From Polyangiaceae bacterium (GTDB lineage: Bacteria; Myxococcota_A; Polyangia; Polyangiales; Polyangiaceae), in the NCBI GenBank assembly GCA_023150915.1, contig JAKLKA010000010.1, positions 1 to 64,000 of the forward strand: DNA of 64,000 nucleotides, written 5' to 3'. Made by a program: the position numbers and the translations under genes. A model generated the notes under the pieces. The model saw only the letters and a program-made list of their open reading frames with translations. It was not told where the DNA came from and did no database searches. This document shows, in pieces, positions 33,632 through 40,491 of the stretch (the stretch's first letter is position 1; every line of letters begins with the position of its first letter).

Positions 33632-34324
33632 TCACGCGGCGATGGCGCGCTGGGCCACCAGCTCGGCGAGTCGGCGCTCCAGCTTGTAGCGCTTGGTGTA
33701 GACGGTGGCGATGCTGATGCCCATGCGGGCGGCAATCACCTCGGGGTCCAGGTCTTGCCCGAAGTAGAGCGCGAAGAACTCGCGCTCGCGGTCAGAGAGC
33801 TCGGCCAGCACTTTGGCGACGATTTGCGCCCGCTCCCTCTCCCACAGGTCTTGGTGCGGGTCCGACCGCTCACACGCAGTCTCGAAGGTCTCGGCCCGGG
33901 CGTCGATCGGACTTCGTTTGATGCGCCGCAGGTGGTCGTAAGTGGCCTGCATGGCCATGCGGGTCAGCCAGCTGCCGAGCCGGGCGCCGCGCGTTGGATC
34001 GAAGCTGCGGAGCTTCTGCTTGTCGCGAGCAATCAGCGAGAGGCAGAGCTTCGCGTACACCTCGCGGACGTCGTCGGACCCAGTGACCGCACCGAAGCGA
34101 GACAGAATGCGTCCAATGGCGCGGTGGAGCGGCGCCGCGTAGATCGCGTTGAACTCGCGCCAGGCGCTGGGCTGATCGTCCAAGAGCCGGCCGACGAAGG
34201 CAGCTTCTTGGTGGAGCTCGGCCAGGGGGGCGGGCTTCTTGGGGGCGCGGAAGGAAGTGGCTTGGGTCTGCATGGCGTTGGCGGCGCCTACAGCAACCGA
34301 CATGCCAGCCTCGAGTAGGCCCAT
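33632..34324 (-). CDS. ECF-like sigma-70 family RNA polymerase sigma factor
   Basis: The protein is about 230 residues. Region 2 is seen as EFNAIYAAPLHRAIGRILSRFGAVTGSDDVREVYAKL, SFDPTRGARLGSWLTRMAMQATYDHLRRIKRS. Region 4 reads LSDREREFFALYFGQDLDPEVIAARMGISIATVYTKRYKLERRLAEL, a good helix-turn-helix. There is no region 3, so it is of the ECF type. Starts at 34324, 34303 and 34273 are all possible; the first is used. It follows the adenylate cyclase gene by 74 bp on the same strand, so a joint regulatory role is plausible. No anti-sigma factor gene is adjacent. It converges with the C15 lipoprotein gene with no bases between the stops. Confidence 0.8.
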   Translation of the reverse strand: MGLLEAGMSVAVGAANAMQTQATSFRAPKKPAPLAELHQEAAFVGRLLDDQPSAWREFNAIYAAPLHRAIGRILSRFGAVTGSDDVREVYAKLCLSLIARDKQKLRSFDPTRGARLGSWLTRMAMQATYDHLRRIKRSPIDARAETFETACERSDPHQDLWERERAQIVAKVLAELSDREREFFALYFGQDLDPEVIAARMGISIATVYTKRYKLERRLAELVAQRAIAA

Positions 34325-34397
34325 TTCGCAGGATTTCGGCGGTATCCGCTGTGGCGCGGAGGCCTCAGGCGCTGCGCGGGGCTGGGGCCTCGGCGCC

Positions 34398-35999
34398 TCA
34401 GCTGGGGGTCGAGGCGGCCTCGATCGACGGAGGCGGCAGGCTCGCACCCGGCGGCGGCCACACGCGATACGCCTGAACCGGCGCGGTCTTCCCTTTGACG
34501 CTGAACGGGGCCAGGGCCTGCTTGGGGAACTCGGGAGGAAGCCGCTCGGCGCAGAGCGCGCTGACCCAGACCTCGCCGGCCGGCGCCTGCGAGGTGAGCC
34601 GCGCCGCGAGGTTCACGGTGTCGCCGATCACCGTGTACTCCATGTGCTCGCTGCTCCCCAGGTTGCCCGCAACCAGCGGCCCGGTGCTGACGCCAATCCC
34701 TACGGCGAGCTCCCCGACCTCGGGGAACGCCCCCACCGAGTTCAGGCGTGCCACCTCGCGCTGGACTGCAATCGCGCACCGCGCGGCGCGCTCGGCGTGG
34801 TCGGCCTGGTCGATGGGGCCGTTGAACACCACCACCACCGCGTCGCCGATGAACTTGTCCAGATAGCCTTCGTGCGCGTCGATCACGGTCACGACCCGCT
34901 CGAAGTACCGATTCAAGACCCCCAGCACCTGCGCGGGTTCGAGCCGCTCGCTCATGCTGGTGAAGCCCCGAACGTCCGCGAAGAACACGCTGGCTTCGCG
35001 CAGCTCTGCCGGCAGCATGGCCTCGCCGTGCTGTTCGCGGATCCGGGTGAGCACCTGACCGCTGACGTACTTGCCGAAGGCGCGCTCCATGTTGCGAGAC
35101 AGCGTCAGATCAGAGGCCATTTGGTTGAAGGCGTGGGAAAGCTGGCGAAAGTCCCGACTGCCGCCCTCTTCGACGCGCACCGAGAGATCCCCGCGACCCA
35201 GCTGCGCAAACGCCTGGCTCAGCGGATGCAGCCGCTCCATCACGGCATCGGCCAGCTTGCCGCAGGCCGACAGCACCGCGGGAAACGCCATCAACCCGAA
35301 GGCGACCAAGAGCAGCAGCGAGACCAACGCCACGACCTCGGGCTTCTTCATCACCTCTGCCAGGCCTTCGCCCTGCAGCTTGCCTTCGGGCCCCAGATCG
35401 AGGGCGAAACCCCGGGTCTGGCTCAGGGTCTCGATGGCCGAGCGCGTGTTCATCACGACCAGGCTCAGCCCCGCCACCGCCGCCGACGCAATCGCGACCA
35501 GTGACAGCACGGCGAGTTGAATGCGTCCGCGCAGGCTCTGAACCAGCGCGCTGACCGTGACGTCGATCAGCACCACCACCAGCGTGCCGGTGGCCGCGCT
35601 GGCTGCCCAGAACCCGCCCATCACCGCCGAGAGCGCCGCGGTACCGTCGTCGCCCACCACCCCGAGCAGGCCGAGGACCATGCCGAGCACGATGCCGACG
35701 GCCAAGAGGGCCAGCGGGGACACCAGGGCCGCGACCACGCGCACGGCCGAGTTGCGGCCGACCAGGTAAGTGAACACCCTGTCTTCGACCCAGGCGCCCA
35801 GGCCGCACGCCGCCAGCACCGCGACGAGCTTGCACAAGCCGTCCAGGCTACCGAAGAGCCCGCCCCGACTCGCCGGATTGGGAATGCTGAGGGCAATGGC
35901 GCCGAGCCAGAGCCAGAGCGCGATGCGGGGCAGACGTCGCGGCACGCGCGCGGCGGGGGTGAGCACGGTGAGCGCCGTGGGTGCGTTCGACGCCGTCAT
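34398..35999 (-). CDS. Membrane-bound class III adenylate cyclase with HAMP domain
   Basis: The 533-residue protein has about six membrane segments in the first 250 residues, a HAMP region (PLSQAFAQLGRGDLSVRVEEGG, about 265-310), and a C-terminal class III cyclase domain. Catalytic features: metal-binding Asp in FFADVRGFTSMSERL, the adenine-specifying Lys in YLDKFIGDAVVVVF with the second metal Asp in GDA, and VNLAARLTS with the transition-state Asn and Arg. The Lys/Asp pattern points to ATP and cAMP rather than GTP. The membrane part, before the HAMP, probably senses an external or membrane signal. It begins 16 bp after the stop of the CX4CH lipoprotein gene, possibly in the same transcript, and is followed by the sigma factor gene. 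Confidence 0.92.
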   Translation of the reverse strand: MTASNAPTALTVLTPAARVPRRLPRIALWLWLGAIALSIPNPASRGGLFGSLDGLCKLVAVLAACGLGAWVEDRVFTYLVGRNSAVRVVAALVSPLALLAVGIVLGMVLGLLGVVGDDGTAALSAVMGGFWAASAATGTLVVVLIDVTVSALVQSLRGRIQLAVLSLVAIASAAVAGLSLVVMNTRSAIETLSQTRGFALDLGPEGKLQGEGLAEVMKKPEVVALVSLLLLVAFGLMAFPAVLSACGKLADAVMERLHPLSQAFAQLGRGDLSVRVEEGGSRDFRQLSHAFNQMASDLTLSRNMERAFGKYVSGQVLTRIREQHGEAMLPAELREASVFFADVRGFTSMSERLEPAQVLGVLNRYFERVVTVIDAHEGYLDKFIGDAVVVVFNGPIDQADHAERAARCAIAVQREVARLNSVGAFPEVGELAVGIGVSTGPLVAGNLGSSEHMEYTVIGDTVNLAARLTSQAPAGEVWVSALCAERLPPEFPKQALAPFSVKGKTAPVQAYRVWPPPGASLPPPSIEAASTPS

Positions 36000-36015: not shown

Positions 36016-37032
36016 TCAGTCGGCGCACTCCACTTTCAAGGTCGTATCCCGGATGAAGGCCTGCAGGCCGCGCAGGTCCACCGAGCGATCGTTGTGGGGC
36101 ATCGGCAGCCCGCGCACGAACCAGCGGGCCAGGCGTTCCGACTCGGCCGCGCTGGGCTCGGGGCAAGTCCCGGCCGGCAGCGCCACCTGGTGCACGGTCG
36201 AGCAGCCCACGCCGGGGTTTCCGCTGAAATTCCTGGGGTTCCGCAGCAGCTTGTAGATCAAGTAGCTGTTCTCGGGCCGCCCGCGATCGATGATTGGCAT
36301 GTTGACCCCGAGGCGCGGCGGGTTCTCGAGGGTCTGGCCGGCGTTCGCGCCACTCTCGGTCTGGTGCGCGACCCGGTCGATGGCGGTTTGCGCCAGGCCT
36401 TCGACGTTGTCGAGGCGCAGGCCCATGCGTGCGCTCTCGCCGCCGTGGCAGCTGTTGCTCGAGCAACCGGCGCGCTTGTTCTCGGGAATGCCCGGGGCCA
36501 GCGCTTCGAGCAGCGCGCACGTGTCGCCGAACACCGGCGAGGGGGGCGCCGGCGGCACCGTCGCAGACTTCCGCGTTCGGAAGTCGAAGGTGAGCGGAAC
36601 GGCACCCTCGCCCAGCACGGCGCCGTCGAAAGCCCTGAATCCGAAGTCGTCGTCGGTCGCCGGCGACCGCAGCTCGACGGTGTACCGCGTGCCCGGCTCG
36701 AGCTTGGCCCCGGCGGGCAGGCGGTAGACCAAGACGCGCTCCACCACGTCGTACTCCGGCTGCGCGAACACCCCCAGGTCCTCGCTCCCGGTGAAGACCG
36801 AAATCGACTGTCGAACGGCGGTGGCCGGCAGCAAGTACCGGTCGAAGCGCAGCTCGAGCGTGGTCTCGGTGGGGACACCGCAGTCGTCCGGCGCCTCGAG
36901 GCCGCACTCCGTGCCTGCACCGGGCTCGGGATGAGCGGCGACGACCCGGAGGGGTGGCCCCTGCGAGGCGTCGAGCTCGGGAGTACCTTGATCGCAGCCG
37001 AGAACGAAGAGCGCGAGAATGGAGCCGATCAG
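36016..37032 (-). CDS. Lipoprotein with heme-like CX4CH motif
   Basis: This protein of about 338 residues has a lipoprotein signal (LIGSILALFVLGC, lipobox VLGC). A beta-rich N-terminal domain follows (TTLELRFDRYLLPATAVRQSISVF, VVERVLVYRLPAG), and then the motif GCSSNSCHGG, which fits a CX4CH heme site or a related iron-binding Cys motif. Further Cys appear in GVGCSTVHQVALPAGTC. No ATG, GTG or TTG gives a plausible start. The best candidate is a CTG at 37032 whose last two bases are shared with the TGA of the upstream helical-protein gene (cTGA). The context, downstream of a 13-heme cytochrome and an outer-membrane barrel, suggests a role in electron transfer, but heme binding is not proven. 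Confidence 0.7.
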   Translation of the reverse strand: MIGSILALFVLGCDQGTPELDASQGPPLRVVAAHPEPGAGTECGLEAPDDCGVPTETTLELRFDRYLLPATAVRQSISVFTGSEDLGVFAQPEYDVVERVLVYRLPAGAKLEPGTRYTVELRSPATDDDFGFRAFDGAVLGEGAVPLTFDFRTRKSATVPPAPPSPVFGDTCALLEALAPGIPENKRAGCSSNSCHGGESARMGLRLDNVEGLAQTAIDRVAHQTESGANAGQTLENPPRLGVNMPIIDRGRPENSYLIYKLLRNPRNFSGNPGVGCSTVHQVALPAGTCPEPSAAESERLARWFVRGLPMPHNDRSVDLRGLQAFIRDTTLKVECAD

Positions 37033-37283
37033 CTCTCGGCGTACATCTGCAGCTGCTCGCGCACGGTGGACTCGCTCACGCCGGTGCGGATGTGATCCTT
37101 CAGGCAGTCGGCCAGAGTGATCAGGAGGTCGTCGATCCCCTTTTCCTCGATCACTTTGGACAAGAGGGCACGCGCCTCGCGGCTGTCGTCCTCGCGGAGG
37201 AACTCCCGCACCTTCTCGACGGAGATGTCCCCCTGAAAGTCCAAGTACATGTTTTCCAAGAGATAGCGGACGAGCTCCTTCAC
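37029..37283 (-). CDS. Small helical protein, 84 aa
   Basis: The protein is short, acidic and highly charged: VKELVRYLLENMYLDFQGDISVEKVREFLREDDSREARALLSKVIEEKGIDD and onwards. It is predicted to be almost all alpha-helical, with no membrane segment or signal. Start is GTG at 37283 with AGGAGG about 7 nt upstream, one of the clearest ribosome-binding sites in the window. Its stop overlaps the CTG start of the downstream lipoprotein. A regulator or adaptor role is possible; I do not recognise a family. Confidence 0.75.
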   Translation of the reverse strand: MKELVRYLLENMYLDFQGDISVEKVREFLREDDSREARALLSKVIEEKGIDDLLITLADCLKDHIRTGVSESTVREQLQMYAES

Positions 37284-37421
37284 TCGGGGCCTCCTGCAAA
37301 AGGGGTACCGGCACACAGGGCGCCGGCGGAGCCTCGCTATACCCCCCACCCGAACACTCCGGCAAGCGGATTGAGCCCCGGTACGCGAAATTCCTCAGCC
37401 GTCGCGTGCCATTCTGGGACA

Positions 37422-38810
37422 TCAACGGCACTCCTGCAGCTTGGAGTCCGCGGGATCGTGACAAACCAGGCAGGGACGCGCGTTTCGGCGCAGGGCGCCC
37501 GCGCAGCGGTCGCGGAAGCTGCGGGGGTGGGGGTTCACGCCCTGCCCGCCAAATCCCGAATCGCCCAGACCAGCCGGCCCCGTCTTGGGACCGAAGCCGC
37601 GGCCACCGCGCGCCGGGGTCGCGTGGCACGTCGCGCAGTCTCGCTCGACGTGGCAGCTGGCGCAGGCGTTGATGTTGCGCTGCGCCTCCCAGGCGTGGTG
37701 CTGCGACGAGCGCGGCGGGTTCGACCAGACCTCGGGCGGCGGATGGAAGCGACCGCGGCCCCCGAAGTTGGCGTACGGCCCGCTCATCGAGACGCCCGCG
37801 CGCTGGTGACAGCCGACGCAGAAGCTCTGCTGGCGGTGGCAACTGGTGCAGCTGGGGTCGTTCTGACGGGCCGCAACCGGATGCATGCTGATCCAGTCGT
37901 TCGGGTGGATCTGGCGGGGGCGCACCCGGCCGTCGTGGCAGTCGGTGCAGAACCGCTCTTGATGACAGCTGGCGCACAGCTGGCTGTCGTTGCCGGCAAC
38001 CTGTTTGTGGCGCTGCACCCAGTCGGCGCCGTGGCCCGCGTCGTGCAACCACTGAGGCGGCCGGAGGGTGCCGGCGGAAAACCGGGTCTTCATCACGGCG
38101 CCCTTCTCGGTCAGATGGCAGGTGACGCACTCGCCCCGGGCCTGCCCGCGCGCCGGGCCCGGCATCTGGTGACAGACGAAGCACCCCTTCATGCGTGGCA
38201 GCTGATCGCGTGTCGCCAGCTCGATGTTCTCGACGGCGCCGTGGCACTGCGAGCAGGCAATGTTGCGACGAACGTGCAGCGCGTGGTTCATCCGCAGGTT
38301 CGGCGCTGGCATCACCATCCGCGCCACGCGGTTTCCGTCCCCGGGCTTGTAGCCAAGGTGGCAGAACCCGCACTGAGCCATCAGCGCGTCGTCATCGGTC
38401 GTGACCGCCGAGAGGTCACGATGATCGCTGCCGTGGCAAGCGTCGCAACGCGTGGGCCGAGGCAAGAGCGAGTCTTTGCTGGCCTGGCTGGTCTTGGCCG
38501 CGTCGTGGCAGGTGGTGCAGGTCAGCCCCAGCTCTTTGACGTGCTTCTTGTGGTTGAAACGGATCGTGAGCTGCTGCGGCGGGAAGATCACCGGGCTGGG
38601 GCCGCCGTCCCCCGAAACGGCCCCAGGAGGGCGATCCGCCAGAGGAACCGGAGCATTCCCGGGCAACGGCGCCAGACCGCGCACCACGGCCTGGGGTGCG
38701 GCCGGCGCCGCGGGCCTGGCAGGCGAGCTCTGAGCGCGCGCCAAGTCCAGGCCCAGACCCAGCGCAAGCGCGGTGGCGCACGTCAGGGCAAGCAGCCACA
38801 GCGCCCTCAT
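37422..38810 (-). CDS. 13-heme c-type cytochrome
   Basis: The 462-residue protein has a Sec signal peptide (RALWLLALTCATALALGLGLDLARA) and thirteen CxxCH heme-attachment motifs: CTTCH, CDACH, CGFCH, CSQCH, CFVCH, CVTCH, CASCH, CTDCH, CTSCH, CVGCH, CASCH, CATCH and CLVCH. Many further His residues could be distal ligands (RFNHKKHVKEL, RMNHALHVRRN). The ATG at 38810 is used; it overlaps the stop of the upstream barrel gene (ATGA). Together with the barrel it resembles the porin-cytochrome modules that carry electrons across the outer membrane in some Gram-negatives. The true electron donor and acceptor cannot be deduced from this sequence. A 138-bp gap separates it from the downstream small protein. 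Confidence 0.93.
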   Translation of the reverse strand: MRALWLLALTCATALALGLGLDLARAQSSPARPAAPAAPQAVVRGLAPLPGNAPVPLADRPPGAVSGDGGPSPVIFPPQQLTIRFNHKKHVKELGLTCTTCHDAAKTSQASKDSLLPRPTRCDACHGSDHRDLSAVTTDDDALMAQCGFCHLGYKPGDGNRVARMVMPAPNLRMNHALHVRRNIACSQCHGAVENIELATRDQLPRMKGCFVCHQMPGPARGQARGECVTCHLTEKGAVMKTRFSAGTLRPPQWLHDAGHGADWVQRHKQVAGNDSQLCASCHQERFCTDCHDGRVRPRQIHPNDWISMHPVAARQNDPSCTSCHRQQSFCVGCHQRAGVSMSGPYANFGGRGRFHPPPEVWSNPPRSSQHHAWEAQRNINACASCHVERDCATCHATPARGGRGFGPKTGPAGLGDSGFGGQGVNPHPRSFRDRCAGALRRNARPCLVCHDPADSKLQECR

Positions 38811-40324
38811 TTGAGCACCGTGAGGTCCAGGGTGGCGAGCAGGCGGTAGCGCTGCCCCACGAGCCGGTTGGTGCTGTGCTCCCACTCGAGCCCAATCCGC
38901 GTCTCGTCGAATGGGCGGATGCCGCCGCCCGCGACGTAAGAGAAGCTGGTCGCAGATCGGTCGGGTCGCAGCCCATCTTCCCAGTCGTAGACCGAGACGA
39001 TCGCGAGCGTGTCGTACAGGCCTTGATCGAAGGTCTGATTCAACGTGACGTCGCCCCCCACCCGGTGGCCTCGGCGCCCCGTTTCAGTCGCGCCGCGCAG
39101 GCCAGCGCTGCCGTCGGACCAGCGGTGGCGACCCGCGAGGTTGACCACCCAATCCGAGAGCCGCCCCGTCTCGCTGCGATCCGGATCGCGGTCTTGCTGC
39201 TCGACCGTGCCGTAGGTGCCGCTGTCCCCCTCGGTCTCGAACACCTTCACCCCGCTCGAGAGCGCCAGGTCGAAGCGCCGGGACGGCCGCCACTCGCCCC
39301 GACCGAGCAGCGTGGTCATCCCGCTGTGGGTGAACCAGTTCCAGATCGAGTCGCCGTCGAACGTCGGATAGTAGTAGTCGTAGTCCGCTCCGACGGTGAT
39401 CTGGTCGGTGGTGTACCAGTCCAGGGCGAGCGCGCGTTCGCTCACCACCTGATTGTAGAAATCGTAGACGAGGCTGCCCCGCGCGGCCCCCAGCGTGGGC
39501 TCGGTGGCGCGGACCGAATACCCGATCCGCTCGCTGGATACGCGATCGCCGCCCACCCGCTGAAAACCGCCGCCGGTATCGGGAAACGGCGACACCACCA
39601 CGCGGTCTCGATTGATCACCTTGCGGTACGAAAGCCTGCCGTGAACGAAGTGCACGCCGACGCTCTCGAGCGCGACGCCGAACGCCGGCGCCAGCCGGGA
39701 CTCGCTGAGGAAATAGGGTGCCTGGTTCAGCTCCAGCTCGTCACGATTGCCGCGGTACACGCCGTCGGACGCGTAGCGCTCGGTACCGAGCAGCATGGGC
39801 AGGCCGCCGCGTTGTTCGAAGCCCGCATACGCTTCCAGCTGGAAGTACGCGGGCGTGGTCAGCCGCACCAGGCCACCGTCGAACGACCACCAGCCGAGCG
39901 AGTCGGTGACGTACTGGCGCCCCGCGCGGAACCCCACCCAGCCGCCGAGATAGTTCCGACCCTCGAGGTAGGCGTACATCACGTCGACGGGCGATTGCAC
40001 CAGATCGGGCACGAAGGTGCCGGGCTGGCGCGGATTGGTTTCGTACCGCTCTTTGCCGAAGTCTGCGTCCAGCCGGAGCCGCGCCCGGAACGCAAGCTGC
40101 GGCCCGTACGGCACGAAGTCACCCTGGATGTCGTACACGCTGAGCGCGAGCGCCTGCGTGTACCGGCGCCGCCGCACGATGGGGTCACCCCAGGGCGAGC
40201 GCAGTGTGTAGAACTGCGCGTCGCTGGTCGCGGCCACCTCGGCTTCGTACGCTCGCGCAGGCGTGACTTCGCAGAGCAGCGTCAGTGCGCCCAGGACGAC
40301 CAAGCTCGAAGGGCGAACTCCCAT
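38807..40324 (-). CDS. Outer-membrane beta-barrel protein next to multiheme cytochrome
   Basis: The protein of about 505 residues has a signal peptide (SSLVVLGALTLLCEVTPARA) followed by alternating amphipathic strands typical of an outer-membrane barrel (YTQALALSVYDIQGDFV, LAFRARLRLDADFG, WVGFRAGRQYVTDSLGWW, VGADYDYYYPTFDGD, YRLLATLDLTVLK). It ends in hydrophobic/aromatic strands suited to BAM insertion. No heme motif or metal site is visible. Starts at 40324 and 40345 are both possible; the shorter one is used. Its stop overlaps the cytochrome start by 4 nt. The association suggests a porin that holds the cytochrome in the outer membrane, as in MtrB/Pcc-like systems, though primary sequence similarity to those families was not tested. 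Confidence 0.82.
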   Translation of the reverse strand: MGVRPSSLVVLGALTLLCEVTPARAYEAEVAATSDAQFYTLRSPWGDPIVRRRRYTQALALSVYDIQGDFVPYGPQLAFRARLRLDADFGKERYETNPRQPGTFVPDLVQSPVDVMYAYLEGRNYLGGWVGFRAGRQYVTDSLGWWSFDGGLVRLTTPAYFQLEAYAGFEQRGGLPMLLGTERYASDGVYRGNRDELELNQAPYFLSESRLAPAFGVALESVGVHFVHGRLSYRKVINRDRVVVSPFPDTGGGFQRVGGDRVSSERIGYSVRATEPTLGAARGSLVYDFYNQVVSERALALDWYTTDQITVGADYDYYYPTFDGDSIWNWFTHSGMTTLLGRGEWRPSRRFDLALSSGVKVFETEGDSGTYGTVEQQDRDPDRSETGRLSDWVVNLAGRHRWSDGSAGLRGATETGRRGHRVGGDVTLNQTFDQGLYDTLAIVSVYDWEDGLRPDRSATSFSYVAGGGIRPFDETRIGLEWEHSTNRLVGQRYRLLATLDLTVLK

Positions 40325-40491
40325 GGGACCGCGAGCCCCGAGCATCGTCGAGCGAACTTCCAGCTGTCAACTCGCGGCCCGGACCTCGACCCGCGGGTGG
40401 AGCGGGCCCAGGTCCGCCGCGGCTGAGCGGGCCCAAGGGGCCGGCCGGCCGCGGGCAGCGCTGTTCGGGCGCCGCCCTCGACAGCGAGCGC

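Follow-up and report, generated by a model that had tools for sequence, protein, structure and literature searches.

Does a pair of overlapping genes in a myxobacterial genome encode a route for electrons through the outer membrane? The question is raised by a stretch of 64,000 nucleotides (nt) from a Polyangiaceae bacterium (assembly GCA_023150915.1, contig JAKLKA010000010.1, positions 1-64,000), which as a whole is called the window. Its minus strand codes, in this order, for an outer-membrane barrel (OMP), a multiheme c-type cytochrome (MHC), a small soluble helical protein (SMALL) and a monoheme lipoprotein (LIPO). OMP (38807-40345, 512 amino acids (aa)) starts with the ATG at 40345 or with an internal ATG at 40324 and has a signal peptide that ends with ARA, followed by Y. 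MHC (37422-38810, 462 aa) carries 13 CxxCH motifs, six in its N-terminal part and seven in its C-terminal domain; no other protein in the window has more than one. The two genes share the 4 nt ATGA (38807-38810), the start codon of MHC lying on the TGA of OMP. A preliminary description of this DNA had reported a barrel gene overlapping by 4 nt a cytochrome gene with 13 CxxCH motifs, followed on the same strand by a small protein and a lipoprotein with a CX4CH motif, and the open reading frames bear this out (SMALL, 37029-37283; LIPO, ending at 36016). We consider it likely that OMP and MHC are the two proteins of a conduit for electrons across the outer membrane, as predicted from the evidence given below.

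The distribution of the pair was analysed in 379 genomes drawn from Myxococcota, and the MHC profile matched in 141 of them. At 51 of 56 loci from the phylum, the OMP profile identified an OMP gene immediately upstream of MHC and on the same strand. Two of the five remaining loci are situated at contig ends, while three (L061, L062 and L085) have a diverged porin at this position. At 47 of these 51 loci, a start codon of MHC lies on the stop codon of OMP, the overlap being 4 or 1 nt. When bacterial genomes were scanned with MHC, 16 loci were obtained. Fifteen of them bear a myxobacterial label and one is labelled as a metagenome-assembled genome (MAG) of a delta proteobacterium; the set includes strains of Sorangium cellulosum as well as MAGs of Polyangiaceae, Byssovorax and Kofleriaceae. 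As 14 of these 16 loci retain the order OMP-MHC-SMALL-LIPO, and as the overlap of start and stop codons is so frequent, the arrangement must have been selected and is not accidental. To judge from this overlap and from their joint occurrence, the OMP and MHC genes are translationally coupled and inherited together.

The heme motifs of MHC did not arise by chance, which is excluded by their conservation and by residue-shuffled copies of the protein, where CxxCH occurs 0.11 times on average and at most twice. Most MHCs across the phylum have 13 hemes with near-constant spacing. The alignment of 47 full-length MHCs shows the 13 histidines of the heme motifs and 11 further conserved histidines. 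Seven of the latter occur in the C-terminal seven-heme part, where they may be the ligands of bis-histidine hemes. The N-terminal six-heme half matches Pfam Cytochrome_C7 (7e-16) and, among PDB sequences, c7 cytochromes of the PpcA type and ActA of alternative complex III, while no solved structure in PDB matched the C-terminal half by sequence. Five loci (L017, L059, L060, L080 and L081) code only for the C-terminal seven-heme half, which is still found directly behind OMP. In the tree, these seven-heme versions occur at two places among 13-heme relatives, which implies two or more losses of the N-terminal half, provided that the 13-heme form came first. Since it is the C-terminal half that is kept alone, this half is likely to be the core inside the barrel and the c7-like half a periplasmic extension. 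At the N-terminus of MHC (38730-38810) and of its homologues, a cysteine recurs in the middle of a hydrophobic segment (consensus AC..ALALA). It may or may not carry a lipid, as the hydrophobic residues extend beyond it.

OMP was not matched by any model of Pfam or NCBIfam, the curated MtrB and PioB models included, nor by a sequence from PDB. AlphaFold predicts a barrel with 22 long strands and one short hairpin (pLDDT 75.8), which is devoid of a plug domain. According to VIA-align 2, it is closest to the 22-strand barrels of TonB-dependent transporters (Z up to 17.6, root mean square deviation 4.1 A over 361 residues), and in these the barrel encloses a plug domain of its own. Foldseek, with a ranking by general similarity, retrieved numerous barrels of low TM-score, and MtrB is not among the matches listed by either program. 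The window shares the combination of a barrel gene and a multiheme cytochrome gene with MtrAB, MtoAB, PioAB and DmsEF. In MtrAB, the interior of the barrel is occupied by a cytochrome with ten hemes. MtrB has 26 strands, as compared to about 22 in the OMP model, which by standard barrel geometry corresponds to backbone radii of 23.5 A and about 20 A, respectively, so that a lumen of cytochrome size is plausible for the modelled OMP. MHC does not belong to the MtrA/DmsE family, as it scores 14.4 bits against the corresponding model TIGR03508, below the cut-off of 192.2.

The pair is related to three-gene clusters of the Pcc type, one of which is encoded in the same genome (G000:C193:32600-42600; locus L096:634-10555). 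It consists of a porin, a 12-heme cytochrome of about 338 aa with lipobox VAAC, and a surface-type lipoprotein cytochrome with a Geobacter CxxxxCH/CxxCH domain (100.5 bits, cut-off 27). Adjacent genes code for a 27-heme protein, for a quinol dehydrogenase of the NapC type and for an octaheme lipoprotein that includes a collagen-like stretch. The MHC profile matches the 12-heme cytochrome with 8e-26, and the two proteins have in common a C-terminal heme-pair spacing of 9 residues. The cluster thus resembles the window pair in its porin and its MHC-related cytochrome, and differs in the lipobox and length of the latter, in the Geobacter-type surface cytochrome and in its 27-heme and NapC-type neighbours. 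We rejected the possibility that it is a contamination, because two congeneric genomes keep the 12-heme gene with 78-88% sequence identity, in both cases followed by the surface-type cytochrome, and because the G+C content is similar. The porins are related as well. When three-gene porins were compared to the OMP family by hhalign via an intermediate profile, probabilities of 99.5-99.7% were obtained, as compared to 0.5-4.5% for two unrelated control families. Three loci from other families (L061, L062 and L085) show the classical Pcc layout, with a frame for a 26-28-heme cytochrome (L061:10794-13613, L062:2493-6458, L085:10974-14300; a lipobox was seen in L062), an open porin frame of 506-614 residues and a 13-heme MHC homologue, all on one strand.

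In the tree, the two-gene and the three-gene type are separated with full support, and MHC is placed as the sister clade of the 12-13-heme cytochrome from the three-gene Pcc cluster. Within the two-gene type, the branching largely agrees with taxonomy and thus points to vertical inheritance since early times. In genus g17 (genomes of 10.8-13.4 Mb), no three-gene-type cytochrome was found at the threshold used, the single match (G291) being the window-type MHC of that genome, and the conduit is therefore not tied to a canonical Pcc cluster. A porin gene that adjoins a multiheme c-type cytochrome gene and homology to the three-gene cluster, the marks of a Pcc system in the broad sense, are both found. 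Taken together, the pairing of the genes, their coupling and their homology to the Pcc cluster are best explained by a conduit across the outer membrane. The interpretation as a porin-cytochrome conduit, already put forward in the preliminary description, is supported by the plug-less barrel of about 22 strands, the coupled 13-heme cytochrome and this homology.

Several points weigh against such a conduit. The window is devoid of a second multiheme frame in all of its 64 kb, and hence of the adjacent surface cytochrome that characterizes the three-gene Geobacter type. When the alignment of window-type OMPs (A1) was compared directly to the three-gene porins, hhalign assigned only 94-96%. None of the aligned OMP members ends with the aromatic residue that is usual at this C-terminus. 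For MHC, AlphaFold gave a model of low confidence (17 sequences, pLDDT 41.6, pTM 0.19), and the insertion of MHC into OMP is deduced from sequence. More generally, the evidence is genomic. Finally, carriers with several heme-copper oxidases have no evident need to respire extracellularly.

Porin-cytochrome systems as such are already known, and the window module is a variant within this kind. Pcc clusters have been described in Geobacter and in other bacteria from six phyla (PMC4245776). As in OmbB-OmaB-OmcB of Geobacter and in Group IV of Anaeromyxobacter, a porin-like protein is encoded beside a periplasmic multiheme c-type cytochrome. Anaeromyxobacter also shares the two-gene organization with the window: its Group IV Pcc has 12-14 hemes in 338-344 aa and lacks a gene for a surface cytochrome (PMC4245776). 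Compared by description, the window module differs from the Geobacter and Anaeromyxobacter systems in its longer cytochrome (462 aa), in the co-inherited monoheme lipoprotein and in its spread through the phylum, which includes the aerobic Sorangium; its cytochrome forms a clade separate from that of the three-gene type. The PCC3 and PCC4 clusters of iron oxidisers are likewise predicted porin-multiheme clusters outside the Mtr and Geobacter families (PMC5566968). PCC3 cytochromes contain low-complexity repeats, and their median heme number is 21 for the periplasmic and 34 for the extracellular ones; an inner-membrane protein is encoded in PCC3 as well as in PCC4 (PMC5566968), whereas the window module has neither such repeat-rich, high-heme cytochromes nor an inner-membrane protein. 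Multiheme proteins have been reported for Myxococcota MAGs from sewage sludge, with Anaeromyxobacter being named (PMC11495043), and Myxococcota are absent from the main text of a survey of outer-membrane cytochromes from 2024 (PMC11475568). In the open-access literature, most subscription journals being outside of this search, no description was found of the system in Sorangium, in Polyangia or in other Myxococcota apart from Anaeromyxobacter.

The preliminary description had listed all four genes under one candidate conduit. The lipoprotein is co-inherited with MHC, whereas the small helical protein is probably not a part. SMALL (37029-37283, minus strand, 84 aa, GTG start) occurs in 89 of the 379 genomes, 21 of which are devoid of MHC. 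It is a core gene and was rejected as a probable component of the conduit. About 140 nt lie between MHC and SMALL, and this gap may contain a promoter of its own. LIPO (36016-37032, minus strand) has a lipobox-like LGC, a Big_5-like domain and, at its C-terminus, a class-I-like heme domain with a single CX4CH (CSSNSCH), a motif which binds heme in cytochromes c3. In the heme domain, the CH and a Met-Pro are invariant, while some relatives have CXXCH and others CX4CH. All 60 LIPO orthologues are from MHC-positive genomes. Among genomes that code for SMALL, LIPO is present in 59 of the 68 with MHC and in none of the 21 without it; Fisher's exact test gives p = 1e-13, a value that ignores relatedness, several of the 21 genomes being from one genus. 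In five MHC-negative genomes, there is no LIPO beside SMALL. LIPO adjoins SMALL wherever both were inspected, and in many genomes the two are encoded on another contig or far away from OMP-MHC. Rather than a multiheme surface reductase, LIPO is a monoheme cytochrome whose inheritance follows that of the conduit, and from its domains and distribution it is a probable redox partner of the conduit, facing outward or inward.

Translation of LIPO likely starts at a CTG (37032) that overlaps the TGA of SMALL, as no ATG, GTG or TTG is available between the stop codon of SMALL and the lipobox. Either this represents a rare start codon or the genes are coupled by another route. Most relatives also have a CTG on the SMALL stop codon (AGC TGA; window 36985-37075), and L004 is devoid of even that CTG.

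The properties of LIPO bear on a further explanation, by which the conduit serves a surface oxidoreductase in the way that DmsEF serves DmsAB, this extracellular redox enzyme being LIPO itself or an unlinked protein, which would take up or give off electrons by way of MHC. The combination of an Ig-like (Big_5) and a class-I-like monoheme domain in a protein co-inherited with MHC would fit, as would the lack of an adjacent multiheme surface cytochrome. We nevertheless regard it as rather unlikely, since no catalytic domain could be recognised in LIPO and since, outside the class, many genomes with MHC have no full-length orthologue of LIPO.

The physiological setting was addressed by family searches, which give an incomplete inventory of the cytochromes in the genome. 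They revealed two genes for heme-copper oxidases as well as NrfA and a protein of the NapC type. A tandem CxxCH pattern in contig C283 was rejected as a cytochrome, since it lies in a tandem repeat which, when translated from the opposite strand, is a Gly-rich repeat. Three Sorangium genomes have 4-5 COX1 matches each, together with a weak NapC-type match. The preliminary description had considered such a system notable in an apparently aerobic myxobacterium. The case is less isolated than it seemed, given the phylum-wide module, the known Pcc of Anaeromyxobacter (PMC4245776) and the full Pcc cluster, the NrfA and the two heme-copper oxidases of the genome itself.

As MHC carriers include bacteria with 2-5 COX1 matches, electrons might also flow inward, from extracellular Fe(II) or other donors to aerobic respiration, as in MtoAB or PioAB. 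The two-gene layouts of Mto and Pio also resemble the window in having no adjacent multiheme surface reductase. Against this, the related cluster from the same genome resembles the export type of Geobacter and is accompanied by a NapC-type quinol dehydrogenase, and we consider an inward conduit to be unlikely. That MHC is a soluble or anchored periplasmic carrier or capacitor, and OMP an ordinary nutrient or ion porin co-expressed by happenstance, is quite improbable: its N-terminal half is indeed closest to periplasmic c7 cytochromes and ActA, and OMP is in no annotated Pcc or Mtr porin family, but the strict pairing and the codon overlap across the phylum, the relationship of OMP and MHC to a three-gene cluster that includes a surface cytochrome, and the retention of the seven-heme domain instead of the c7-like half in reduced versions all speak against it.

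For the conduit through the outer membrane, which we favour, the following mechanism may be proposed. The C-terminal seven-heme domain of MHC would reside inside the OMP barrel and carry electrons across the membrane, a placement suggested by its being the only part kept in several lineages. The c7-like six-heme part would reach into the periplasm and exchange electrons with periplasmic carriers, which might be fed by an inner-membrane quinol oxidase, either a NapC-type protein or alternative complex III. LIPO, co-inherited though not always linked, would likely act as redox partner at the outer membrane. Candidate directions are respiratory export, reductive acquisition of metals or iron, and electron import. 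Export seems somewhat more likely, because in the related cluster of this genome a surface cytochrome of the Geobacter type is accompanied by a quinol dehydrogenase of the NapC type.

Conserved genes further upstream of the conduit (for an FtsY-type GTPase of the signal recognition particle, two proteins without Pfam match and a HEAT-repeat protein) and downstream of it (for kinases, sigma-54 activators and LepA) were rejected as conduit components, as they differ between lineages and as those inspected upstream have no hemes. A gene for a HAMP-adenylate/guanylate cyclase (34398-35999) separates LIPO from a sigma factor gene (33632-34447). The cyclase gene was not found at that place in L003, the closest relative, where the sigma factor gene comes directly after LIPO. 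In one locus (L012:10699-15788, minus strand), two open frames with 9 and 8 CxxCH are situated downstream of the conduit on the opposite strand.

Porin-cytochrome conduits have mainly been studied as tools of anaerobic metal respiration. Tentatively, one might envisage that aerobic, predatory or cellulolytic myxobacteria have kept a phylum-wide, vertically inherited conduit for a purpose other than mineral respiration. This purpose may be reductive iron acquisition, redox attack on neighbouring cells or exchange with them, or survival under oxygen limitation in fruiting bodies and biofilms, and the monoheme lipoprotein may act as a surface or periplasmic partner. The seven-heme versions suggest a minimal membrane-crossing core, which would be useful for structural work and for bio-electronics. 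If the prediction is true, cultured strains (Sorangium) are available for asking what purpose the conduit has, and outer-membrane electron exchange would be ancient in a large group of predatory soil bacteria that has been thought to be aerobic.

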